DNA of 64,000 bases. Origin: Ekhidna lutea (GTDB taxonomy: Bacteria; Bacteroidota; Bacteroidia; Cytophagales; Cyclobacteriaceae). The stretch spans positions 1 to 64,000 of the forward strand of contig NZ_FZPD01000005.1 of NCBI RefSeq assembly GCF_900188325.1. The letters run 5' to 3'. Every line of letters starts with the position of its first letter. Positions within the stretch are counted from its first letter, which is position 1. Under the pieces are notes generated by a model. That model searched no databases. It worked only from the letters and a program-made list of their open reading frames with translations, and was not told the origin of the DNA. The position numbers and the translations under genes are program-made. This document shows positions 4,059-52,717 of this stretch, in pieces.

Positions 4059-4976
4059 ATGTCTCGCAAGTTTCTATTTACAATATTGATACTTTCTGTT
4101 GCCGGACATTTAAATGGTCAGCAACAATTTGTGATGACGCAATACATGTTTAATGGCTTGGTATTAAACCCTGCATACGCTGGTACGCATGAATCGTGGA
4201 GCTTCACAGCCATGTCGAGGCACCAGTGGAGCGGGATTCCGGGGGCACCTTCCACTCAAACATTCACAGCCCATGGATCAATTACTCGTAATAACGAATC
4301 TTCTGCCGGAATGATTTTATCCAATGATCAATTTGGAGCCATTTCATTAAATAATTTATATGGCGTTTACGCTTACCGAATGAATTTTGATAGAGGAAGG
4401 CATCACCTTTCAATGGGACTGCAAGGGGGTTTATCTATATTCAATGTAGATCTCACTCAAGATGATTTGATTGATGCGGATGATCCTGTTTTAAACAATG
4501 ATTATAATTCGGTTATGGCCAACTTTGGCACTGGCATATTCTACAATGGGCCTAAGATATATGCAGGCCTTTCAGTCCCTTTTCTGTTAAATAACAGACT
4601 AAATCAAAGTGAACAAGATTTAAGCAAACAGGTGAGGCATTATTACCTGACAGGTGGAGCTATTTTACCAATAAATCATGATTTGAAGTATAAGCCAAGT
4701 TTTTTGATCAGGTATGCAAATGGTATTTCAGACATTGATATTACTACCAGCTTTCTTTTCAGAGATGTCATTTGGTTTGGCGTTACCTATCGGGTTGAAA
4801 ATTCAATCGATTTCATTCTTGAAGTTCAGTTTACAGATAACCTGCGCTTTGGATATTCTTATGGATTAGTAACGTCCGAGTTGGGTCAATCCACTTCTGG
4901 CTCTCACGAAATAGTACTTAACTACCGCTTTAGGAAACAACATCCAAGAGTCAATCACCCGAGAAGATTTAGATGA
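4059..4976 (+). CDS. PorP/SprF family T9SS outer membrane protein
   Basis: The 305-residue product starts with a signal peptide (about residues 1-20, ending HLNGQQQ). It continues with the family hallmark QYMFNGLVLNPAYAGTHESW followed by outer-membrane beta-strand-like segments. PorP/SprF proteins are outer membrane components linked to T9SS; SprF-type paralogues are often encoded beside large adhesins they help to export, as SprF is for SprB in Flavobacterium. Here the large type B adhesin lies directly upstream, which fits that pairing. The stop overlaps the next start (ATGA at 4973-4976), so the gene heads a translationally coupled operon. Family assignment is strong; the specific partner is inferred. 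Confidence 0.9.
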   Translation: MSRKFLFTILILSVAGHLNGQQQFVMTQYMFNGLVLNPAYAGTHESWSFTAMSRHQWSGIPGAPSTQTFTAHGSITRNNESSAGMILSNDQFGAISLNNLYGVYAYRMNFDRGRHHLSMGLQGGLSIFNVDLTQDDLIDADDPVLNNDYNSVMANFGTGIFYNGPKIYAGLSVPFLLNNRLNQSEQDLSKQVRHYYLTGGAILPINHDLKYKPSFLIRYANGISDIDITTSFLFRDVIWFGVTYRVENSIDFILEVQFTDNLRFGYSYGLVTSELGQSTSGSHEIVLNYRFRKQHPRVNHPRRFR

Positions 4977-7126
4977 GGCTAGTTCATTACATATTGTATG
5001 TTTCAATTTTTTGCATGTTTGGATACGGCCAATCGATCAAGATATTGCATAGCATGGATCCACTTGAGGAACGTGGTAATAGATCGTATAAAAATGGAGC
5101 GTATCAAGAAGCAGCAATTTTTTATGAACGGGCCTTTAAAAAGGATACAACTAACTCAGCACTTGCTTTAAAAATAGCCGAAAGCTATCATCACATCGAT
5201 CAGTTCAAAACTGCAGAAAACTGGTTTCGAATAGGAATTCAAAATAATGAACTGCCAACGGCCCAAAACATGTTGGACTTTGCCCAGGTGCTAATGGCCA
5301 ATCAAAAATATGAGGAAGCCGAGGTTTGGTTAAAAAAATATAAATCCGTTGAGGGATCACATCTTATCGCATCGAAAAAACTCTCATCAATAGAAAATAT
5401 TCATAAACATTTTCGGGATTCAGCCTCCATCGAAATTGAGCCATTAAGCATCAATACAAAATATGCAGAGTTTAGCCCATTTTATTATGGATTTGGAATT
5501 GTGTACTTATCAGACCACCACAGTAATGATGTGACCAATGTAATGGGATGGAGTGCCGAAGAGTACACCACAGTTTTTTATACCGAGGAATTAGAAAGTG
5601 GTCGAATGAGAGACCCTGAGGTGTTTCATCGGGGATTAAATTCTGAGTACCATGAAGGTCCACTGGTATTTTACGATGGAAATAAGATCATTTTCACCCG
5701 TGCGGGTATTCCCAATAAAAATAATGCCGAGAGTCACCTGGAGCTTTATTATGCAGAATATGATTCCAGAAAAGATCAATGGGTAAATATGAAGCCTTTA
5801 CCCTTCAATGATCCAAATTATTCTGTTGGTCAGCCAGCTATATCAAAAGATGGTAAAACAATCGTTTTTTCATCCAATATACCTGTTGGCTATGGTGGTA
5901 CGGATCTGTATGTATCAAAACTTCAGGATGGTGAATGGAGCGAACCTGAAAATCTAGGGGAGTTTATCAATTCTGCAGGAGATGACATGTTTCCATTTTT
6001 AATCAATGAGAATGAGTTGATTTTCTCTTCTGATGGGCATGGCGGATTGGGAGACCTGGATCTTTTTAGAGCCCCACTAAATGCATCCGGCCATGATGAG
6101 GTGGAAAATCTAGGCTATCCATTTAATTCTTCATATGCTGATTTCGGATTTATCTCCGATTCCCTCGGAAGAACCGGATTCTTTACTTCCAATCGAGAAA
6201 ATGGAGGATTTGATGATGATATTTATCGCTTTACCGCCAAATGGTCTCGCGTTCAGTGTGTGGTTAGTACTGTTTCAGGAGAAACTTTAAGCAATGCAAA
6301 AGTTAACTTTATTGTGGGAGGGGTGGTCAGAGATTCTCGTTTTACGGATGCAAACGGAACGACAGATTTTTTGGCGCTACCCGGGGAAGAGATTAAACTG
6401 GAGGTCAGCAAGGAAGGTTATGTTTCACAAAGTGATGTGATTGCTTCGAATGAATTATTTGCGGGAATGGCAATGACCTCAACCATCACATTAGAAAAAG
6501 AACCTGTTGCCAGACCGGAAAGAGTTGACCCGGATGTAGAGTTACAGGAGTTATATAATAGAAGAAAAGCCATGGTCCAAGTAAATGGACGGGTATTTGA
6601 ATACAGGGAGGTAGGAAACAGCCGATTCATCGTCAATGCGGACGAAAAAATCCTACTTTCAAACACACCTGCTGACGATGGCCAGACAGTTGAAGAGCGC
6701 GCCAAACAAGCAGTGGAGGAAAAAGGTTTGAATATGCAGGAAATGTACTCGCTTAAGAATATATATTTTGATCTTGACAGCAACGAATTGACCGAGCAAG
6801 GCAAGGAGGAATTAAATAAGGTGGTAAAGATTATGACGGTAGATCAGAAGATCGCGTTTTCAATCAACTCCTATGCGGACAGTAGGGGAAGTATGAAATA
6901 TAATGACGAGTTGGCGTTTAAGCGATCTCAAAAGATTGCTAGATATCTTATTGAAAATGATGTTCCCGGAAGTAGATTGATTTTGGATAGCTATGGCGAG
7001 CAGGGGATCTTGAATCACTGCGATGATAACACTGAATGTGAAGAAAGATTTCATGCAGTAAACAGAAGGGCAGAATTAGAGTTAGTAATGAGGAAACTTT
7101 ACACCAATGAAGAACAAGTGGATTAG
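4973..7126 (+). CDS. TPR-PD40-OmpA family protein (PorE-like)
   Basis: The 717-residue envelope protein has a signal peptide, then N-terminal TPR-like helices (about residues 30-125, ALKIAESYHHIDQFKTAENW), PD40/WD40-like beta-propeller repeats (about 230-420; for example DGKTIVFSSN and LGDLDLF), a carboxypeptidase-regulatory-like beta-sandwich (about 425-510), and a C-terminal OmpA peptidoglycan-binding domain (about 595-710) with YFDLDSNELTEQG and a terminal NRRAEL motif. This architecture matches T9SS-linked PorE-type proteins that connect the outer membrane complex to peptidoglycan. It overlaps the upstream PorP/SprF gene by 4 bp and the next gene by 20 bp. The function as T9SS anchor is inferred from architecture and context. 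Confidence 0.85.
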   Translation: MRLVHYILYVSIFCMFGYGQSIKILHSMDPLEERGNRSYKNGAYQEAAIFYERAFKKDTTNSALALKIAESYHHIDQFKTAENWFRIGIQNNELPTAQNMLDFAQVLMANQKYEEAEVWLKKYKSVEGSHLIASKKLSSIENIHKHFRDSASIEIEPLSINTKYAEFSPFYYGFGIVYLSDHHSNDVTNVMGWSAEEYTTVFYTEELESGRMRDPEVFHRGLNSEYHEGPLVFYDGNKIIFTRAGIPNKNNAESHLELYYAEYDSRKDQWVNMKPLPFNDPNYSVGQPAISKDGKTIVFSSNIPVGYGGTDLYVSKLQDGEWSEPENLGEFINSAGDDMFPFLINENELIFSSDGHGGLGDLDLFRAPLNASGHDEVENLGYPFNSSYADFGFISDSLGRTGFFTSNRENGGFDDDIYRFTAKWSRVQCVVSTVSGETLSNAKVNFIVGGVVRDSRFTDANGTTDFLALPGEEIKLEVSKEGYVSQSDVIASNELFAGMAMTSTITLEKEPVARPERVDPDVELQELYNRRKAMVQVNGRVFEYREVGNSRFIVNADEKILLSNTPADDGQTVEERAKQAVEEKGLNMQEMYSLKNIYFDLDSNELTEQGKEELNKVVKIMTVDQKIAFSINSYADSRGSMKYNDELAFKRSQKIARYLIENDVPGSRLILDSYGEQGILNHCDDNTECEERFHAVNRRAELELVMRKLYTNEEQVD

Positions 7127-43812: not shown

Positions 43813-44433
43813 ATGCCTCCAATTATAAACGGACTCATTTTTGGCCTCATTTTTCTATTTGCTCTGGGGCCGGCATTTTTTGCACTCATTCAAACCAGCA
43901 TACAGCAAGGGTTCAAAAAAGCCATATTCATGGCTATTGGTATTTCAACCAGTGATGTTTTCTATGTTGTTTTGGTTTTGTTGGGTATGGCTAAAGCGCT
44001 GGAAACGGATGACTTTAAGATTTGGATGGGAATTTTCGGGGTTGTGATGTTGGGGGCATATGCCGTCTATTCCTGGTTTAAAGTGCCTAAAGTGCACAAC
44101 GATGACACGATGATGAAAGAGTCCAGTCTTGCACGCCAATTCGCAAAAGGATTATTTCTCAACGGCCTAAATCCTTTTATAATCGTATCATGGGCAACAT
44201 GGGTCAGTGCAATCGCAATCAACTTTGAGTATAGTTTCAATGAACAGCTTCAATTTTTTGGAGGAATGCTTATAACCATTCTTACAATGGACATCACAAA
44301 AGCTTTCATTGCTCATCGACTAAAGCATTTGGTTACGGTCAAGTTTGTTAGACGAATGAACCGTACAGTCGCAATTATCCTGATTCTTTTCACTTTTCAA
44401 ATACTCTACTTCCTGATCACTAACTATGCCTAA
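43813..44433 (+). CDS. LysE family transporter
   Basis: The 206-residue membrane protein has about six helices with the LysE/RhtB start IFGLIFLFALGPAFFALIQT, SIQQGFKKAIFMAIGISTSD and the conserved FLNGLNPFIIVSWATWVSAI. The family exports amino acids or similar solutes. Its start is 1 bp after the GH3 stop, indicating cotranscription. It ends convergent to the PlsC-like gene, 65 bp apart, with no strong terminator visible in the gap. Confidence 0.88.
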   Translation: MPPIINGLIFGLIFLFALGPAFFALIQTSIQQGFKKAIFMAIGISTSDVFYVVLVLLGMAKALETDDFKIWMGIFGVVMLGAYAVYSWFKVPKVHNDDTMMKESSLARQFAKGLFLNGLNPFIIVSWATWVSAIAINFEYSFNEQLQFFGGMLITILTMDITKAFIAHRLKHLVTVKFVRRMNRTVAIILILFTFQILYFLITNYA

Positions 44434-44498
44434 GTGAAGTTTTCTTACATTTCAGCTCTTTTAAAGCCAGTAAATCAGAAAAATAATTTATCTCGTTA

Positions 44499-45236
44499 TT
44501 ACGAAGCTGTGGTTGAATGATCTTCTCCAATAGCAACACCAATCTTTTTCACCAACTCTTCTACCGAATCATTTTCGTAATCAATATCTAATGGGTCACC
44601 GAATTTTATGGAAAGGGTTACTCCTTTCTTAATCCGCTTGATTCCGGTTTTGTCAAACGCTTCTCTAAAGCCATCCACACGCACAGGAATTACAACCGGT
44701 TTATGTTGCTTGATAATATGAGCTGTTCCTTTACGCACAGGCGCACCTTTCCGCGTGGTTCCTTGTGGAAACGTTACTACCCAACCATCTTTAATTGCCA
44801 TCCCGATTGATTTGGTATCATCAGGATTTACTTCTCTTTTGATCATCTCATCTCCCTTTCGCCATGTTCTATCTACAGTGACTGCACCAGCTAATGCAAG
44901 TATTTTAGCTAAAAAGCCTTTTTCCATTGTTTCTCGTGCAGCTACATAGTAAACGTTAACCTTTGGGTTTTTCAGGTAGCTCCAGTCCTCGATGGAATCA
45001 ACTTGGCCATTGAGAGCGGCAAACATGGCATGGAACATTGCAATTACATCAGTAAAAATGGTCTGATGATTAGCAACAAATAGTACATTCATGTCAGGAA
45101 TCTCAGTCAAAATCTTACTCCCGGAAACCACAACTTTATTGGGTCTGAGTAGATACCATCGGACTAGCCTTCCTACTGTCTGAAAAATTTTCTTTTTGAA
45201 CCAAATCGACTGACCGAAAACATTCTTCTTAGCCAT
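44499..45236 (-). CDS. 1-acyl-sn-glycerol-3-phosphate acyltransferase (PlsC family)
   Basis: The 245-residue membrane-associated acyltransferase has VLFVANHQTIFTDVIAMFHA, an HX5D variant of the usual HX4D motif that is typical for the Bacteroidota branch, and VTFPQGTTRKGAPVRKGTAH (FPEGTxx-like). It would acylate a lysophosphatidic acid or another lipid acceptor. An orphan minus-strand terminator lies 50-90 bp upstream of its start, so its leader might be attenuated. Confidence 0.85.
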   Translation of the reverse strand: MAKKNVFGQSIWFKKKIFQTVGRLVRWYLLRPNKVVVSGSKILTEIPDMNVLFVANHQTIFTDVIAMFHAMFAALNGQVDSIEDWSYLKNPKVNVYYVAARETMEKGFLAKILALAGAVTVDRTWRKGDEMIKREVNPDDTKSIGMAIKDGWVVTFPQGTTRKGAPVRKGTAHIIKQHKPVVIPVRVDGFREAFDKTGIKRIKKGVTLSIKFGDPLDIDYENDSVEELVKKIGVAIGEDHSTTAS

Positions 45237-45286
45237 GAAATTCTTTTTTATTCACTCGAAATTAAAGAACATGGGTGGAAGATTTC

Positions 45287-45323
45287 AGGAATAAAAAAGA
45301 ACCCCAACAAATCGTCGGGGCTC
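45287..45323 (-). terminator. Orphan minus-strand Rho-independent terminator
   Basis: On the minus strand, arms GAGCCCCGAC and GTTGGGGTTC pair (two G-U wobbles) around GATTT and are followed by TTTTTT. The wobbles work only on the minus-strand RNA, which fixes the orientation. No coding gene ends here; the PlsC-like gene begins about 50 bp further on. Confidence 0.6.
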
Positions 45324-45456
45324 ACATAGTAGAGTAAGTTAGCGATTGGGCGCTATGGTCCAATTACATTTTGAGTTTTTGACCTCTCGACAAAGTAGAT
45401 ACTATTCTCATGCCATGAATATTAAGTGTCAGTAAATCAGTGAATTATGATAAAAT

Positions 45457-45508
45457 TAGTTTTGTCATAATGTTCGGTTACGAACATAAATTGATAGAAT
45501 ACGAACAT
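45457..45508 (+). promoter_or_regulatory. Promoter with operator-like palindrome for the thioredoxin-like gene
   Basis: TAGTTTTG (45457-45464) matches the -7 consensus. ATGTTCG (45470-45476) and CGAACAT (45481-45487) form a perfect inverted repeat around GTTA, at the predicted transcription start. A further CGAACAT copy (45502-45508) lies exactly 21 bp downstream of the right arm, two helical turns away. This suits a dimeric repressor. Confidence 0.5.
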
Positions 45509-45547
45509 ACTGTTGTGCAAATGAGCGTTTTTAGGGAAATTTCCAGC

Positions 45548-46711
45548 ATGAAGAAACTGATGCTGATATTTCTGATCATCCCACTCGGTTTGAGTGCCCA
45601 AATAAAGTTTGAAAATTCATGGGATGAGGCCGTCTCTAAGTCGAGAATGACAGGAAAGCTCATATTCATGGATGCCTATGCGGAGTGGTGTGAGCCATGT
45701 AAGGAAATGGAGGAATATACCTTCACAGATCTTGAAGTAGCTAATTACTACAATATGAATTTCATCAATCTTCACCTCGATATGGAAGACTATCCCGGTG
45801 TTGAGCTTGCAGAGGAATATGCTGTCGGAGTGTTCCCATCATTTCTTTTCATTAACGGAAATGGAGAAGTTGTACACAGAGGATGTGGAGCAATGGATGC
45901 CGGCCAGTTTCTAATGTTAGGAGAAGAAGCCCTGACGGATAGTGTCACACTCCTGGCGATGGAAAAGCGATATGACGATGGCGATCGAACCGCTGATTTT
46001 ATGCTGGATTATTTGGAAATGCTGGAAGATGCCTGTCTGGATGCTGAGCGATTTGCTGCAGGATATTTAAAAGGTGTGGTGTTGAGTGATTTGACTAAAG
46101 AAACACCCTGGGAGGTATTTGCTGCGTACCAGTGGGATATATATAGCAGAGAGTTTCAATATGTGCTGAAAAACAAAGCTCTATTTGATGAGGAAGTAGG
46201 AGCGCGAATGGTGAACGCAAAACTTTACGATACGTATTTGTCCCAATACCAGGAAGTATATGAAGCAGAAGAACTACACGATTATGGGATGCGGGCACTT
46301 CTTCACTCGATTAAAGAAGTAACGTTTACAGGTTCAGATACGCTCAAAGTAATGATGAACTTGCATTATGCAGAGTTTACTGAAAATTGGCCTGAATATG
46401 CGGAATACGCCGTTGAACTGGTAGGAATGACCGGAGTGGAAGACCCGGAAGAGTTGAATGAGCTTGCCTGGAAGTTTTATCTTTTTGTTGACAATAAAAA
46501 CCAACTGGAAATAGCTTCCTCCTGGGCGCAAGAGGCAGTTACGAAAATGCCTGAACCTTCGATCATAGATACGTATGCTTCGCTGCAGTTTAAGCTTGGA
46601 AATAAAAAGAAGGCTATAGATCTGGAAAAAAGAGCTTTGGAGCTTGCACGTGAACTATATGATGACACTTCTCACTTTGAGTATCAATTGAGAAAGTTTG
46701 AAGGAAAATGA
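45548..46711 (+). CDS. Secreted thioredoxin-fold protein
   Basis: The 387-residue protein starts MKKLMLIFLIIPLGLSAQ (signal peptide); the longer frame from 45440 would cross the operator. A thioredoxin fold follows (about residues 25-130) with the active site AEWCEPCKEME (CxxC) and cis-Pro in GVFPSFLFINGNGEVV. The C-terminal 250 residues are helical, TPR-like (LASWAQEAVTKMP-type phrases), and end with IDLEKRALELARELYDD. It may be a periplasmic redox protein handling disulfides; partners are unknown. Confidence 0.85.
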   Translation: MKKLMLIFLIIPLGLSAQIKFENSWDEAVSKSRMTGKLIFMDAYAEWCEPCKEMEEYTFTDLEVANYYNMNFINLHLDMEDYPGVELAEEYAVGVFPSFLFINGNGEVVHRGCGAMDAGQFLMLGEEALTDSVTLLAMEKRYDDGDRTADFMLDYLEMLEDACLDAERFAAGYLKGVVLSDLTKETPWEVFAAYQWDIYSREFQYVLKNKALFDEEVGARMVNAKLYDTYLSQYQEVYEAEELHDYGMRALLHSIKEVTFTGSDTLKVMMNLHYAEFTENWPEYAEYAVELVGMTGVEDPEELNELAWKFYLFVDNKNQLEIASSWAQEAVTKMPEPSIIDTYASLQFKLGNKKKAIDLEKRALELARELYDDTSHFEYQLRKFEGK

Positions 46712-46716
46712 AATGA

Positions 46717-47115
46717 TTATCGCTTTGTCAATTCAATCGTCGGTCCGGACCCCATTATCCTTAAAGTATAATCCAGTTTATTAGACATTTTCCTTTCAAA
46801 ATAGAACCTGATTCGTATCTGATCCTCAATTATTGTCGAAAACTGGTACAAATCTGCTGTTTTAAAGTCTTCGTGTGCATCCGGGTAGGCTTTTGAGAAG
46901 TTTATAACTGTATCTTCCATTGCAAGCCTAATGTTGTCTATCTCGAATCTAAAATTGGTTGTATTAGAATCATCTATCCAATTCCCAATCAGCCAGGAGG
47001 GAGGACTGAAAACACTTTCTGGTTCAGGAAGTGATTGTGCACCATTCAAATCAAGATTATCCTCGCATGAAAATGAAATCACGGTAACTAATGCAATAAG
47101 TTGAATCGTTTTCAT
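46717..47115 (-). CDS. Small lipoprotein of unknown function
   Basis: The 132-residue protein has a lipoprotein-type signal (ALVTVISFSCEDN, lipidated Cys at residue 17) and a short beta-rich body (PPSWLIGNWIDDSNTTNFRF), similar in style to lipocalin-like Bacteroidota lipoproteins. No family is assigned. It is convergent with the thioredoxin-like gene, only 5 bp apart. Confidence 0.65.
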   Translation of the reverse strand: MKTIQLIALVTVISFSCEDNLDLNGAQSLPEPESVFSPPSWLIGNWIDDSNTTNFRFEIDNIRLAMEDTVINFSKAYPDAHEDFKTADLYQFSTIIEDQIRIRFYFERKMSNKLDYTLRIMGSGPTIELTKR

Positions 47116-47235
47116 AATACCTTCCTTTAAGAAACGTATTTTATATACGATAATAACTCTTATGGCTATTGGAAAGTTTGAATAATTGTCACTCTCATAT
47201 TAATTAGATGCTGATTTGAAACAGTGAGAATGAAA

Positions 47236-47258
47236 AGAGTCCACAAAATGTGGACTCT
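47236..47258 (-). terminator. Terminator after the truncated FtsX copy
   Basis: AGAGTCCACA (47236-47245) and TGTGGACTCT (47249-47258) are perfect arms around AAA. Reading on the minus strand, a TTTTCATT run follows. It ends transcripts of the truncated permease copy and is unrelated in sequence to the terminator after the intact gene. Confidence 0.6.
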
Positions 47259-47281
47259 AAATTAACTTTTCGGAGTTTTAG

Positions 47282-47404
47282 CTATTCATCCCTCAGCGAA
47301 TTTACTGGGTTGGATAGCGCAGCGCGGATAGACTTGTAACTTACTGCTATCATCGCCACAAGAAGGGCCCCTATACCGGCAAAAAGATAGATCGCCAGGT
47401 TATC
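47282..47404 (-). pseudogene. 123-bp 3'-terminal fragment of an FtsX/MacB permease gene
   Basis: The fragment aligns base for base with 49389-49511, the 3' end of the intact permease gene, with five differences in 123 bp (about 96 percent identity). It encodes the last about 40 residues (ending NPVNSLRDE and a stop). Identity stops abruptly at 47404, just before the left hairpin of the RAYT unit. It is either a remnant of a second permease gene or a duplicated 3' end. Confidence 0.85.
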
Positions 47405-47415
47405 CTTCTGCTGGT

Positions 47416-47432
47416 GCGAGCTTGTAGCTCGT
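47416..47432. repeat. Left hairpin inverted repeat of the RAYT unit
   Basis: GCGAGCTTGTAGCTCGT is a palindrome (CGAGCT/AGCTCG around TGT). Its reverse complement occurs at 48011-48027 on the other side of the transposase gene, and the flanking CTGGT/CCAG bases extend the match. This is the usual layout of REP sequences around a RAYT gene. Confidence 0.75.
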
Positions 47433-47442
47433 ACCTCTTACA

Positions 47443-47988
47443 TCAAACAAAATCAATCTCAAGCATTCCTTTGCCTCCTGCATAGTCAATAGCACTGCTA
47501 TACTTCCAATGCTCTGGTTCTGATACAAAACCTGCTTCCACGGGATTTTTATGAATGTAGTCTACTTTCTGATCAATTACTTCTGGACTCCAAAGTTCAA
47601 TCGGTTTATTATGCTGCTGCCAAAATTGTCTATTTGAAACATTACTATTTGATTTGCCCGCCCGCTCCATCATCCATAATACCCATTCCTTTCTGCTTTC
47701 CTTATTATTTTCTTGTACTTGTTTCTGTAACTTTTTAGAAGTGTATGTTTTAAAATCTCTTAGTATGTCCCCTGGATTTTCATCTTTAGCTCGAAAAATT
47801 AAATGAATATGACTAGTCATAATGCAGTAAGCATAAATTTCCATTCCTTTCTCTTTTCTACAATAATTCAGGCTCTCTATGACAGTATTGAAATACTCAT
47901 CTCTAACAAATACATCTATCCAATTAACTGTAGCAAAACTGATGAAATAGAGTCCTTCTTTATTGTAGAATTTATATTTCCTGCTCAC
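47443..47988 (-). CDS. REP-associated tyrosine transposase (RAYT, Y1 HUH family)
   Basis: The 181-residue protein begins with GTG at 47988 (VSRKYKFYNKEG, the usual RAYT N-terminus SRKYKF), preferred over the longer GTG at 48012. It has the HUH motif in MTSHIHLIFRAK and a likely nucleophilic Tyr in VDYIHKNPVEAGF, with WQQHNKPIEL in between. RAYTs nick single-stranded REP hairpins and are domesticated relatives of IS200/IS605 transposases. Matching hairpins flank it. It appears intact. Confidence 0.9.
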   Translation of the reverse strand: MSRKYKFYNKEGLYFISFATVNWIDVFVRDEYFNTVIESLNYCRKEKGMEIYAYCIMTSHIHLIFRAKDENPGDILRDFKTYTSKKLQKQVQENNKESRKEWVLWMMERAGKSNSNVSNRQFWQQHNKPIELWSPEVIDQKVDYIHKNPVEAGFVSEPEHWKYSSAIDYAGGKGMLEIDFV

Positions 47989-48010
47989 AAAGCAAAAATA
48001 TATAATGGAC

Positions 48011-48027
48011 ACGAGCTACAAGCTCGC
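48011..48027. repeat. Right hairpin inverted repeat of the RAYT unit
   Basis: ACGAGCTACAAGCTCGC is the exact reverse complement of 47416-47432, followed by CAGCA, which also matches the left end after a two-base gap. It lies just upstream of the transposase start. Confidence 0.75.
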
Positions 48028-48044
48028 CAGCAATGGGATTGTTC

Positions 48045-49103
48045 TTAGTTATCAAGATTATTTTCCCATTCTTCATCCAATCCTTGGCCGTAGAAGCGTT
48101 CATTCATAAGATCATATAGACACTTTGTATATCCATAATACCAGTCTGGGGAACCTTTAAATGCAGTTTTCTTCCAGAGTTGAGCGTTAAACCGACATCT
48201 GTTAGTACAGAAATGACTGCTATTGTTAGAAGATATTGGACAATCGATAACCTTCCCATCTTGAAGTTTCTTGAAAATTGAGTAGTTGTGTTTGTTTTCT
48301 AAATCTCGAATTTGAAAATCCGTTTTATTTCTAATCCAATCACGTCCTTTGTTCATATACCTCTCAAAGTGTTTCTTTTTTTTCCTTTTGTGATCAATGA
48401 TTTTGAATTCTTTATCTCGTCTTTCTTTTTCTTGCTCAATCTCTTTGTTAACCACCTTTTCAATGTCGGTGATTCTTAGATTTGCCTGTTCGTTATTTAT
48501 CCATTCCGTGATAGGATCATTAAGCAACAATTCTTTGAGTGATTCTTTAGTTATTGAGCGATCAGTATTTTTTAGGTAGATCTCGATTGCGTCGATTTCA
48601 TTTTGTTTTAGAAAATCAATTTTTGCTTGCTCAACTTCATGTGTTACATAGATTTCAATATGAACTTGTCTGTCATCACAAATCAAAATCAAATCAGGTC
48701 TAAAGCGACCAACTTGCTGTTCAATAAGACATTTTTTAATTCTAATCTTCTGAGGTTTTACAATCTCGTCAAATCGGTCGATAATTGGCCCCCAGCCTCT
48801 ATACTTCTCGTCTTTTTCATAGAATCTATGATAAATAGGAGGGAGGACATAATGATCTAGTTCGGAAAATACCTCCTTAGCTAACAAGTGTACAGAGGTT
48901 TCAACCGCATGTTCACATTCTAGAGATTTATAGTGCTGGAAGTGGGCTCTTACTTTGTTTTTTGGATTGTTCTTGGCGATTAATTGGGCATTGCAGGCTG
49001 GACAAGTACAGTTACAAGCTAAGCCATTCGGAACATCCAGAATGTTAACAAGTTTCTGTTGTCCGTCAATAAGTTGGTATGCGTTCTCAAGTTTAACACC
49101 CAT
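48045..49103 (-). CDS. CoiA-like zinc-finger/nuclease protein
   Basis: The 352-residue protein has an N-terminal zinc-finger-like part (CNCTCPACNAQLIAKNNPKN, AHFQHYKSLECEHAVETSVH) typical of competence protein CoiA-like families. A restriction-endonuclease-like core follows (VGRFRPDLILICDDRQVHIE-IYVTHEV, with D..., E-x-Y). The C-terminal half is highly charged (KEIEQEKERRDKEFKIIDHK) and ends in CPISSNNSSHFCTNRCRF, a second Cys cluster. CoiA proteins act in recombination of incoming DNA; here the role is unproven. It sits between the RAYT unit and two upstream hairpins in a segment flanked by a permease-gene repeat. Confidence 0.7.
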   Translation of the reverse strand: MGVKLENAYQLIDGQQKLVNILDVPNGLACNCTCPACNAQLIAKNNPKNKVRAHFQHYKSLECEHAVETSVHLLAKEVFSELDHYVLPPIYHRFYEKDEKYRGWGPIIDRFDEIVKPQKIRIKKCLIEQQVGRFRPDLILICDDRQVHIEIYVTHEVEQAKIDFLKQNEIDAIEIYLKNTDRSITKESLKELLLNDPITEWINNEQANLRITDIEKVVNKEIEQEKERRDKEFKIIDHKRKKKKHFERYMNKGRDWIRNKTDFQIRDLENKHNYSIFKKLQDGKVIDCPISSNNSSHFCTNRCRFNAQLWKKTAFKGSPDWYYGYTKCLYDLMNERFYGQGLDEEWENNLDN

Positions 49104-49162
49104 GTTCCAGTTAAAATTGAGAAATAATTTCTGGAAATCTACAAATGATCCCTAACAATAAC

Positions 49163-49184
49163 ATAAACGCCATGTGGCGTTTAT
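49163..49184. repeat. Perfect hairpin upstream of the CoiA-like gene
   Basis: ATAAACGCCA (49163-49172) and TGGCGTTTAT (49175-49184) are perfect arms around TG. It is about 60 bp upstream of the CoiA-like start and adjoins a second hairpin at 49197-49218. Confidence 0.7.
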
Positions 49185-49196
49185 TTACCTTTCAAA

Positions 49197-49218
49197 TATA
49201 GCGGATGTGCCCGCTATA
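49197..49218. repeat. Second hairpin upstream of the CoiA-like gene
   Basis: TATAGCGG (49197-49204) and CCGCTATA (49211-49218) are perfect arms around ATGTGC. Both hairpins have ATGTG in or next to the loop, so they may be related. Confidence 0.7.
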
Positions 49219-49338
49219 AGACATAACTGAGCATTATTACGTGTCAATTCGATTCGTTCTTAGGGCAATTAAGCGTATTAATAAACGTATATAAACGTTT
49301 TTAAATGTATAATAATACGGTTAATCAAAACCAATAAA

Positions 49339-49369
49339 CATCAAAGCCCTCCAGAGGAGGACTTTGATG
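49339..49369 (-). terminator. Terminator after the intact FtsX-like gene
   Basis: CATCAAAGCCCTCC (49339-49352) pairs with GGAGGACTTTGATG (49356-49369) with one wobble around AGA. On the minus strand it is followed by TTTATT; on the plus strand by AAACTCTTTTT, so it may work both ways. Confidence 0.65.
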
Positions 49370-49388
49370 AAACTCTTTTTAATTGTAA

Positions 49389-51785
49389 TTATTCATCCCT
49401 CAGCGAATTTACCGGGTTGGATAGCGCAGCGCGGATAGATTTGTAACTTACTGCTATCATCGCCACAAGAAGGGCCCCTATACCGGCAAAAAGGTAGATT
49501 GCCAGGTTATCAATACCCCATAAATCGATGCGGTACTGGAAATCACTGATCCATCCTTTCAGGAAGTAGAAAGCTATTGGCCAAGCGATGACATTAGCCA
49601 GAATTATCAGGATAACAAATTCTTTCATTAGTAGCTGCACAATCTGCCGTACGGTAGATCCCAATACCTTCCGTACGCCTATTTCTTTTTTGCGTTGCTC
49701 CACCATAAAAAAGGAAAGCCCAAATAAGCCAAGAGCTGAGAGCACAATGGAAAGCAAAGTGAATGTATTCACCAGTCGGGCAAACAATTCATCAGAAGCG
49801 AAGATCTGATTGAACTCCTGATCAAAGAATTGGTAATCAAATGGATAATTGGGAAAGGTTGCATTCCATTCCGCTTCCAGGAAATCCAAGGTCTCACGTA
49901 CGTTCGTAGGGCTGACCTTAAGAACGAGATTATTGTTAGGACCGGGGTTGTAATAGATCATCAACGGCTCAATCTTATGCCGCATGCTGGAAAAATGAAA
50001 ATCCTTAATCACGCCAACCACTTTTCGCGTGGTGTTATTTCCGAAAACCAGATTTTTACCTACAGCTTCATCCCAGCCCAGTGATTCCATCATGGCTTCA
50101 TTGATAATAATCGACTCTTGCTGATCCGCGCCGAAGCTTGGGTCATAATTCCGACCGGCAGCCAGCTCCATACCCATCGCATCCAGGTAGTTTTCATCCA
50201 TCGACATGACACTTACAATCCATGGCTCATCCTCATTGCCACCCTCTACATTCACACCCCCTCGTCCAAAGGTGTTTCCCGGCATGTTGTTGGAATAGCC
50301 GGTACTGATAACATTGGAATAGTTGTCCAGACTTTCTTTAAAGTTTTCCATCCCACTGGCAAGCCCGGGATTTCCAACATTTATGTTGATCACCTGATCC
50401 TTTTCAAATCCGAGGTGTTTGTTCTTGATGTAATCAATTTGTTTAGAGACAATCAATGTGGTGCATATCATGCCTATCGCAGCAACAAACTGCAGAACTA
50501 CCAGCGTTTTTCTGAGCCATATTCCTTTTGAGCTGGTCTGGAATTTACCTCTCAGGATATTAACCGATTTGATGCTGGAAAGTATGAATGATGGGTAAAT
50601 ACCTGCCAGCGTGCCAATGAGAATACCAAGAAGGAGGAATGCCGGAAGTAGGATTGGTGAGTTCCCCATCAGGGTAAGTAAATCGAAGTTTAAGTTCAGG
50701 CTGTTGCTGTTGGTGAGCATGGAAACCAGAAATAGAGAAATAACCATTGCCATGGTTGCAAGCAGAATAGATTCAATCATATGCTGACCGATCAGCAATG
50801 CTTTTGAGCTACCTACTACTTTCCGTATCCCAACTTCCTTGGCGCGGGTAGTTGATTGAGCAGTGGTCAGGTTTACAAAGTTGAAAGCTGCAATGAGTAA
50901 AATGAAGATTGCTACTCCTGATAGTGCATATACATACACCTGATCGCCTTTGTTTTGATGGTAATAATCAAACAGAAGGCCTGCAGAGCCAAGATGTATT
51001 TCCTCAAGTGGTTGCAATTGCGGAACCCAGAAATCATTGACATCATTGGCAAGCGCAATATCTGCCATCTTCTTTTCCACTTCCAGTTCATCTGCTCCTT
51101 CCGATAGTACGGCATACCCCAGCATCCCAAGACCACCCCAGCCATTAATGTATTGGGCCAGGGAAGAATCGGATTGAGCAGGGTAGAGGGACATTAATGC
51201 GTCAAATCCCAGATGCGAATTCTGGGTGATATTGTCCATAAGTCCTACCACTTCCCATGATTGATCATTGATGGTTAAAATCTGTCCAACTGACCCTTCA
51301 TCACCAAATACCTTTTCAGCGTAGGCTTCCGTCAAGATAAGCTTATGGGGCTGGTTGAATTTTCCCAATGTTTCCTCTCTTTCGCGGACCGGCAAGTCAA
51401 AAATCTCGAAGAAATCATTTTCAACGTAAAGTGCATGTTCGGAGTAATACCCGACATCTCCTTTTTCCATCCGTTGTTCACCTGCGTAGATCATCCGTGA
51501 AGCGATCTCAACTTCTGGAATTTCCTCTTCTGCGGCTTGCGGCATTCGGGGATTGGTAATGGCTACCTCATTGCTGGAAACCCCAATGGCTTCATCAATG
51601 GTTGTGAAACGATAGATTCTTGCTGATTTCTCATGCCATCGATCGTATGAAATTTCATTGTATACAAATGAGGCTAACACTACGAAAGTGGAGAAGCCCA
51701 ATATCAACCCAATGGCATTGATTGAGGTGGATAGTTTGTTTTTCTTAAAGCTCCGGAGAGCTACGAGCATAAATGTCTTTAGCAT
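49389..51785 (-). CDS. FtsX/MacB-type ABC transporter permease
   Basis: The 798-residue permease has two FtsX halves: an N-terminal helix (TSINAIGLILGFSTFVVLASFV) with MacB periplasmic core-like domain, a first three-helix block (about residues 280-420), a second periplasmic domain and the C-terminal three-helix block (LSIVLSALGLFGLSFFMVEQ, RKKEIGVRKVLGSTVRQIV). The paired EVGIRKVVGSSK and EIGVRKVLGSTV motifs are the ATPase coupling loops. No ATP-binding subunit is encoded next to it. Such proteins form mechanotransmission-type transporters. Its last 123 bp are duplicated at 47282-47404. Confidence 0.92.
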   Translation of the reverse strand: MLKTFMLVALRSFKKNKLSTSINAIGLILGFSTFVVLASFVYNEISYDRWHEKSARIYRFTTIDEAIGVSSNEVAITNPRMPQAAEEEIPEVEIASRMIYAGEQRMEKGDVGYYSEHALYVENDFFEIFDLPVREREETLGKFNQPHKLILTEAYAEKVFGDEGSVGQILTINDQSWEVVGLMDNITQNSHLGFDALMSLYPAQSDSSLAQYINGWGGLGMLGYAVLSEGADELEVEKKMADIALANDVNDFWVPQLQPLEEIHLGSAGLLFDYYHQNKGDQVYVYALSGVAIFILLIAAFNFVNLTTAQSTTRAKEVGIRKVVGSSKALLIGQHMIESILLATMAMVISLFLVSMLTNSNSLNLNFDLLTLMGNSPILLPAFLLLGILIGTLAGIYPSFILSSIKSVNILRGKFQTSSKGIWLRKTLVVLQFVAAIGMICTTLIVSKQIDYIKNKHLGFEKDQVININVGNPGLASGMENFKESLDNYSNVISTGYSNNMPGNTFGRGGVNVEGGNEDEPWIVSVMSMDENYLDAMGMELAAGRNYDPSFGADQQESIIINEAMMESLGWDEAVGKNLVFGNNTTRKVVGVIKDFHFSSMRHKIEPLMIYYNPGPNNNLVLKVSPTNVRETLDFLEAEWNATFPNYPFDYQFFDQEFNQIFASDELFARLVNTFTLLSIVLSALGLFGLSFFMVEQRKKEIGVRKVLGSTVRQIVQLLMKEFVILIILANVIAWPIAFYFLKGWISDFQYRIDLWGIDNLAIYLFAGIGALLVAMIAVSYKSIRAALSNPVNSLRDE

Positions 51786-51913
51786 AGTCTTTTGAGTTTT
51801 TGAGTCAGATTAAGCTAGCGACAATACTCGATTGTATCAAAAATGGTTACACGAAAGGATTCGGGTTGGGATGAAGGGTGTTAAAAAAACGTTAAAATTT
51901 AGAAAGCATAAAA

Positions 51914-51936
51914 AAAGCCGGTCTGAAACCGGCTTT
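51914..51936 (-). terminator. Terminator after sdhB
   Basis: AAAGCCGGT (51914-51922) and ACCGGCTTT (51928-51936) pair around CTGAA. On the minus strand it is followed by TTTTTTTA, as expected for the end of the sdhCAB transcript. Confidence 0.8.
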
Positions 51937-51955
51937 GTAATGAGTTGATTTGAGT

Positions 51956-52717
51956 TTAGCTAATGCTGCTCTTTAAATACTCCCGATTCATGCGGGCAAT
52001 GTTCTCGAGAGAGATTCCTTTTGGACATTCTACTTCACAAGCTCCCGTGTTGGTACAGTTTCCAAATCCTTCTTCGTCCATTTGCTTCACCATGTTTTGT
52101 ACACGCTCTTTCGCTTCCACTTTTCCCTGTGGGAGCAAAGCGAGCTGAGAAACTTTAGCGGATACAAATAGCATTGCTGACGCATTCTTACACGTAGCAA
52201 CGCACGCGCCACATCCAATACACGTTGCAGCATCAAATGCTTTGTCCGCATCATGTTTGTCAATTGGAATGGCGTTGGCATCCTGGGTGTTTCCTGAAGT
52301 GTTTACACTCACAAAACCACCAGAGGCCATGATTCTATCAAAAGAACTTCTGTCCACAACCAAATCTTTGATCACTGGGAAAGCCTTAGCTCTCCATGGC
52401 TCAATGTAGATTGTTTCGCCATCTTTAAACTCACGCATGTGAAGCTGACAGGTGGTGATCATCTCACCGGGACCATGTGCTTCGCCATTTATAAACATGG
52501 AGCAGCTGCCGCAGATACCTTCTCTACAATCATGGTCAAAAGCCACCGGCTCTTTGTCCTCTGCAATAAGCTGTTCATTCAATATGTCCATCATCTCCAG
52601 AAAAGAGCTGTCAGGTGAGATGCCTGAAACCTGATAGGTTTCCATCTTACCTTTTTCTTTGTCACTTTTCTGTCTCCAGACTTTCAGTGTTAAATTCAAT
52701 CCTTCTGTTGCTGACAT
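51956..52717 (-). CDS. sdhB: Succinate dehydrogenase/fumarate reductase iron-sulfur subunit
   Basis: The 253-residue subunit has the 2Fe-2S ligands [15 protein letters not shown], a second cluster set [13 protein letters not shown], and a further set [15 protein letters not shown]. It carries electrons from SdhA to the quinone site in the membrane. It follows sdhA by 6 bp and is the last gene of sdhCAB. Confidence 0.95.

Follow-up and report, generated by a model that had tools for sequence, protein, structure and literature searches.

The window, that is, the whole stretch of 64,000 nucleotides of Ekhidna lutea DNA analysed here, raises the question of why the end of an FtsX/MacB-type ABC permease gene recurs about 2.1 kb away, with a unit of the repetitive extragenic palindrome (REP)-associated tyrosine transposase (RAYT) and a CoiA-like nuclease gene lying between the two copies. 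The original prediction suspected a nuclease and RAYT module which is aimed at permease 3' ends; mobile DNA is indeed present in the segment, but such a module is not borne out. Judged from the sequence, the CoiA-like gene is quite probably a stranded cassette, left in an integron-like platform that has decayed; the RAYT is an unremarkable unit with flanking REPs, and the repeated permease tail is most likely an ordinary recombination scar. In addition, integron-like platforms with a Xer-like integrase seem to be present in the Bacteroidota, their cargo including Shedu, NACHT, AbiU2 and CoiA genes. The features concerned in the platform are as follows.

49146 to 49204, minus strand: attI-like site with integrase tail, hairpin (49175-49183 with 49164-49172) and core G^TT (49154-49156), matched by models R1 and R2
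49185 to 49199, minus strand: last codons of the lost integrase, I F E R stop; the same codons end the integrases of genomes G002, G007 and G009
49268 to 49325, no strand assigned: palindromic AT-rich stretch resembling the region upstream of the G002 integrase (90% over 49 nt), probably a relic of the integrase promoter
48045 to 49103, minus strand: CoiA-like nuclease gene, probable cassette cargo, related by tblastn to plasmid genes annotated as CoiA family
47409 to 48032, minus strand: RAYT unit, ends approximate, with the transposase open reading frame (47443-48012) between two inverted REP-like hairpins, at the expected cassette end

In the attI-like site, which is 59 bp long, the end codons of a tyrosine recombinase are followed by a hairpin and then by the G^TT core. 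A 20-nt pattern from the site, allowing up to two mismatches, gave 10 matches in the genome and none for the reversed control, and a covariance model, R1, built from 14 rows including that of the window, gave 62 matches in 21 of 245 family genomes, with 11 in the window's genome. When the row of the window was left out (model R2), 49146-49204 still scored 67.7 bits (E 9.8e-12), and nothing else in the window matched strongly. On the minus strand the order is permease, terminator, promoter-like palindrome, about 64 nt replacing some 900, integrase tail, hairpin, the core GTTAGGGATCA and CoiA. The integrase would have been deleted at this locus, and what remains of the platform in the window would be only the attI-like site, probably the integrase promoter, and the CoiA cassette. 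For the palindrome, the chance control was discarded since it included loci containing the query itself.

At its left edge the site is formed by the end of a gene for a tyrosine recombinase, and the full or nearly full gene precedes it in G002, in G007 and on contig 8 of G000; full or nearly full genes also precede the site in G547, G480, G591, G649, G606 and G488. The two ends of an integron cassette are complementary, in that the bases following the recombination point can pair with those at the far end. When the 9 nt from the core were compared with the stretch from -12 to +130 nt around the cargo stop at 17 sites (the R'' test), nine exact boxes (one with a TTT core) and one with a single mismatch were found, while swapping the heads between sites gave 0/272 exact boxes and three with one mismatch. 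Within the window's genome the box is exact at four of ten sites (contig 13, C11:565931, NACHT and contig 12), CoiA not being among them. Integrase-adjacent sites chosen by eye, a set which excludes L154 and L155 at contig ends, had exact boxes within about 1.4 kb in 5/10 cases, the control giving 1/88. Furthermore, the best 80 of 556 integrase relatives in named genomes left 55 loci after 25 with less than 600 nt downstream were dropped, and the signature occurs at 38 of these 55, or at 40/182 GTT positions versus 16/626 GTTs inside integrase genes; a second script found 39/55 versus a permuted mean of 4.9 and a maximum of 12 in 500 permutations. These genomes are mostly Bacteroidota (Ekhidna, Algoriphagus, Pontibacter, Aquimarina, Maribacter, Winogradskyella and others), a few drafts being labelled otherwise.

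Complementary R''/R' boxes accordingly bound cassettes in relatives and at other loci of the genome, and an attI-like site stands beside the integrase in relatives, the window having the site without the integrase. Moreover, complete attC-like sites and further cassettes are found at several loci, for example L063, L065, L066 and L097, and the folds of two attC bottom strands show R''/R' and L''/L' arms (z -3.9 and -2.5). Like IntI, the integrase would take up cassettes in circular form at the G^TT core, by way of attC sites folded from a single strand. At L149 and L145 (genome G494) att sites are clustered, and the three that were read in L149 each stand behind a decayed, stop-containing integrase 3' end; att sites with such integrase relics may be a clue to the origin of attC.

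The site was at first read as a common promoter or leader of defence genes, a reading which was rejected on account of its overlap with integrase 3' ends and the mirrored boxes. In its wider form, this explanation holds the site to be the common promoter or 5' leader of a defence regulon and no recombination site. The site does stand before many defence-type genes, and it contains TATATTTG, which resembles the Bacteroidetes -7 element; however, integrase 3' ends extend into it and a mirrored copy of its downstream edge follows the cargo, for which a promoter does not account, and the explanation is very improbable.

The defence-type character of the cargo is seen in the first cassettes at ten R1 sites of the genome (the eleventh, on contig 8, stops at the contig end, and two weaker pattern sites were excluded). 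They carry the CoiA-like gene, a PDC-S41 helicase (PADLOC 4e-289), an HSDR_N/Avs2-like gene (5.5e-16), a NACHT gene with PDC-S60 (2.6e-9), Shedu SduA (8.7e-161), an AbiU2 HEPN gene (Pfam only) and a DUF4268/PDC-S11 gene (1.2e-13), and three have no match; PADLOC gave no matches on ten neighbouring window genes, a small and non-random control. The second cassette at L063 (5784-6578) has a penicillin-binding transpeptidase domain (PF00905, 1.3e-32) and is possibly a class D β-lactamase.

The G002 integrase, of 299 aa, has Phage_integrase and SAM-like domains, and its nearest solved structure by sequence is XerA 5hxy. It aligns with the Vibrio integron integrase 2a3v in two pieces, with 25 residues where 2a3v has 68. 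Its score with TIGR02249 (IntI) is 203 bits, under the cut-off of 265, and that with NF040815 just reaches the cut-off (220 bits for 220); the latter bears the NCBI name "site-specific tyrosine recombinase/integron integrase", and therefore the integron link is not new as a label. Alignment of IntI1 with five of these integrases leaves runs of 31 and 11 residues, at the place of the I2 insertion, to IntI1 only, and at most 5 extra residues occur there in 15/15 relatives and 80/80 named-genome integrases, the IntI-specific additional domain being absent from all 80. The catalytic motifs searched are complete in 78/80. The predicted structure of the integrase (pLDDT, a per-residue confidence measure, 84; predicted template modelling score, pTM, 0.69) has no helix modelled between residues 199 and 214, and its best structural matches by E-value are XerA and 2a3v. 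Reportedly, as the title of Messier and Roy (2001) has it, the extra domain of integron integrases is needed for activity. At L066:2892-3323 and at L131 (contig 8 of G000), a small Cys-rich gene and the integrase are divergently oriented, separated by an AT-rich palindromic stretch, and similar upstream DNA is found before several of 12 integrase genes compared.

Cassettes might instead be moved by a canonical IntI located elsewhere, the adjacent I2-less recombinase being a Xer-type bystander. attC sites can serve a foreign IntI, as IntI1 is described to recombine attC sites of archaeal integrons (PMC9668308). Against this, TIGR02249 exceeded its cut-off in 0/10 genus genomes in a six-frame search which scores pieces, and in many genomes the attI-like site directly adjoins a recombinase gene, so that such a bystander is improbable.

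The platform run by the adjacent integrase shares with known integrons a site with a G^TT core next to the integrase, cassettes that are bounded by complementary R'/R'' boxes and can follow one another, attC-like hairpins and defence-type cargo, but its integrase is without the IntI-specific I2 insertion, its attI-like site forms a hairpin into which the 3' end of the integrase gene runs, and many sites per genome have no integrase. The last feature recalls CALIN (attC clusters without an integrase), where cassettes also occur without an integrase; here, however, the attI-like site persists, and each locus read has one cassette or a few. Like the Xer recombinases (XerA, XerC and XerD), of which XerA 5hxy is the nearest solved structure by sequence, the integrase has no I2; unlike them it precedes an attI-like site and cassettes at 38-39 of 55 loci. 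As regards earlier work, IntegronFinder is stated to require a profile of the extra integrase domain (PMC9668308), so it would miss integrases without that domain. Integron carriers are stated to include this phylum (PMC8618304, PMC2426708), and in the text of PMC9024848 one complete integron is named in the Bacteroidetes. Among the papers listed in literature searches, no report of I2-less integrons was found by title or abstract start, a scope outside which many subscription papers and all bioRxiv preprints lie.

It is about an even chance that these platforms form a phylum-wide class of Bacteroidota integrons, with I2-less Xer-like integrases and attI inside the integrase 3' end, as a living form between Xer and IntI, with a strongly anti-phage cargo and with the integrase-tail att sites of G494 hinting at the origin of attC. 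If an I2-less integrase with real cassettes were confirmed, the origin of integrons from Xer recombinases would become directly testable, and a large unsearched store of cassettes, many of them defence-type, would be indicated.

The CoiA-like gene has tblastn relatives in 54 plasmid records (E down to 4e-26) and in 4/394 other genomes of the phylum searched, while no match was found in 58 other genomes and no relative in scans of genome contigs, viral contigs and phages. In the protein, P136, D137, E150 and T154 are invariant across four aligned relatives. Conserved N-terminal Cys residues, a P-D ... E-x-x-x-T core and relatives so annotated liken it to the CoiA family, but Pfam CoiA_N reaches 17.1 bits, under the cut-off of 26.3 for the curated domain, and the C-terminal part is divergent; the tblastn relatives and the conserved core support the putative kinship with CoiA. 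In E. coli, a functional screen for defence included a protein with a CoiA domain (PMC9519451). The gene itself has no PADLOC match.

Next to it, the RAYT protein scores 97 bits with NF047646 (cut-off 80), and inverted REP-like palindromes stand at the flanks of the unit, so that a REP-associated tyrosine transposase and its flanking palindromes are both present, with no notable difference from known RAYT/REPtron units. At one end the unit directly adjoins the permease fragment; at the other, about 13 nt separate it from the CoiA stop that precedes it. Similar units occur in genus relatives, each with its own REP-like ends, and a permease tail was not seen at the ends of the relatives in L067-L069, which were inspected by eye only. 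At L089:5597-15129, many REP-like hairpin copies surround two cassettes.

A number of observations weigh against the cassette reading of the CoiA gene and the platform behind it. In the R'' test, 7/17 sites have two to four mismatches, although two of these, G002 and L096, have exact boxes outside the tested stretch (that of L096 at 2.8 kb). An automated pass over 30 integrase loci gave five exact boxes and did not find the hairpin and GTT at 13; 16-17 of the 55 named integrase loci are without the signature, and about five positives are expected by chance. The 80 integrases were found with an I2-less query and are hence a biased sample, not a frequency survey. Most dispersed sites have no adjacent integrase. 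At the CoiA gene itself, the best R'' box has 3/9 mismatches, which is like the control, and an attC relic is absent from 44001-52500. The expected end box TGATCCCTAAC is not intact; the CoiA stop is followed by GAACAATCCC, the RAYT unit, and then GATAAC and the permease fragment. The RAYT unit would have landed at the end of the CoiA cassette, and a splitting of the end box by it is suggestive only.

There remains the repeat, the features of which are the following.

49389 to 51785, minus strand: FtsX/MacB-type ABC permease of 798 aa (MacB_PCD and FtsX domains), whose 3'-terminal 123 bp (49389-49511) are copy 1 by the repeat alignment
47282 to 47404, minus strand: copy 2, an orphan permease 3' end of 40 codons and TAG, differing from copy 1 synonymously only
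49339 to 49369, minus strand: T1, hairpin terminator behind copy 1
47236 to 47258, minus strand: T2, hairpin terminator behind copy 2, its loop in register with that of T1

The same-orientation repeat of 123 bp (47282-47404 versus 49389-49511; identity 118/123, five differences) stands as first described, as does the presence between its copies of a RAYT, by the NF047646 match, and of a CoiA-like gene, by its tblastn relatives among CoiA-family genes. In the whole genome (4.2 Mb) the repeat occurs in two places only, the second copy being 97% identical (E 6.7e-53), and no third copy was found genome-wide, the remaining matches being at chance level (E 0.1 or worse). The permease C-terminus has 33 matches in the genome; 32 of them are in frames of 796-1194 aa, and only the one at 47285-47404 falls in a short frame, of 51 aa. 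All five differences between the copies are synonymous, including the stop (TAG versus TAA), which under random substitution has a chance of about 0.001 (all types) to 0.005 (transitions only). Because of this, the copies probably diverged inside a working gene, and the differences are therefore evidence against a fresh in-place copy; a simple in-place copy followed by drift was rejected on account of them. At the four informative codons the full permease has the state of genome G005 and the fragment deviates, a weak hint. Past the stops a weak similarity runs into the terminators, 27/46 nt being equal in register (47236-47281 versus 49339-49388), with a maximum of 25/46 among 3321 pairs of other gene ends, in a comparison which was unplanned. 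The stems of T1 and T2 differ; a classical tandem duplication of the segment, which would be expected to leave the same terminator behind both copies, was rejected since the terminators are different. An Rfam search of 46500-52000 gave zero matches.

The syntenic locus of G005 (acyltransferase, permease, thioredoxin-like gene, permease, TPR gene, small open reading frame, window permease, sdhBAC) has one copy of the window permease, with 84.5% protein identity, the two other permeases being 27% alike, and has neither RAYT, CoiA nor a second permease tail. Judged by matches in nine other genus genomes, the permease stands beside sdhB in G005 only. In G001, G003, G004, G006 and G007 the matches to the thioredoxin-like gene and sdhB are 0.1-0.9 kb apart on one contig, and the permease relatives in G001, G004 and G006 (58-60% identity) are at other genomic places. 

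No evidence was found for a role of the permease repeat as an insertion target. Most likely, recombination with the DNA of a close relative displaced the recipient allele, of which the fragment is the 3' end. The incoming DNA would have had homology at one end and a short chance match at the other, and an illegitimate join at six common bases, GATAAC, would have left the second permease 3' end; GATAAC occurs where the fragment starts and again where the CoiA gene ends. The model is that of homology-facilitated illegitimate recombination as described in PMC5361080.

The main rival for the repeat is a lost second permease gene, which had also been proposed beforehand: two full permeases would once have been adjacent, the second losing its 5' part on the arrival of RAYT and CoiA, with the 3' ends kept alike by gene conversion. 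The synonymous-only differences and the weakly similar in-register terminators suit two formerly working genes, and permease genes are numerous (33 C-terminal matches). On the other hand, G005 has one such gene at the locus, and CoiA and the RAYT unit leave no space for a further permease remnant next to the fragment, so this history is rather unlikely, though appreciable.

That a CoiA nuclease and RAYT element was inserted in the permease 3' end and restored it, as first suggested, can be given hardly any credence. The repeat flanks the segment, the close identity stops at the stop codon, the differences are synonymous, and 2/10 integrase-less att sites of the genome with readable cargo (49204 here, and L092 on contig 13) are directly behind an FtsX-type permease; but one border of the segment fits an integron site and the opposite border a RAYT end, and L092, the other permease-adjacent site, has no direct repeat of at least 40 nt. 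Elements that integrate at gene 3' ends, of the e14/icd type, carry their own integrase inside and have a recurring target gene. Here no integrase open reading frame lies between the repeat copies, and the other 32 C-terminal matches to the permease include no orphan tail. Moreover, G005 carries a single permease and neither gene, and no permease-annotated feature stands beside the CoiA relative in the three plasmid records opened of the 54; likewise, a CoiA-like gene flanked by permease 3' ends was noticed nowhere, the distant loci among the phylum-genome matches not having been read for permease tails. At L091, the att site stands behind a groEL-like gene, and a direct repeat (4623-6114), 99% identical and spaced by about 828 bp, is found behind the cassette.

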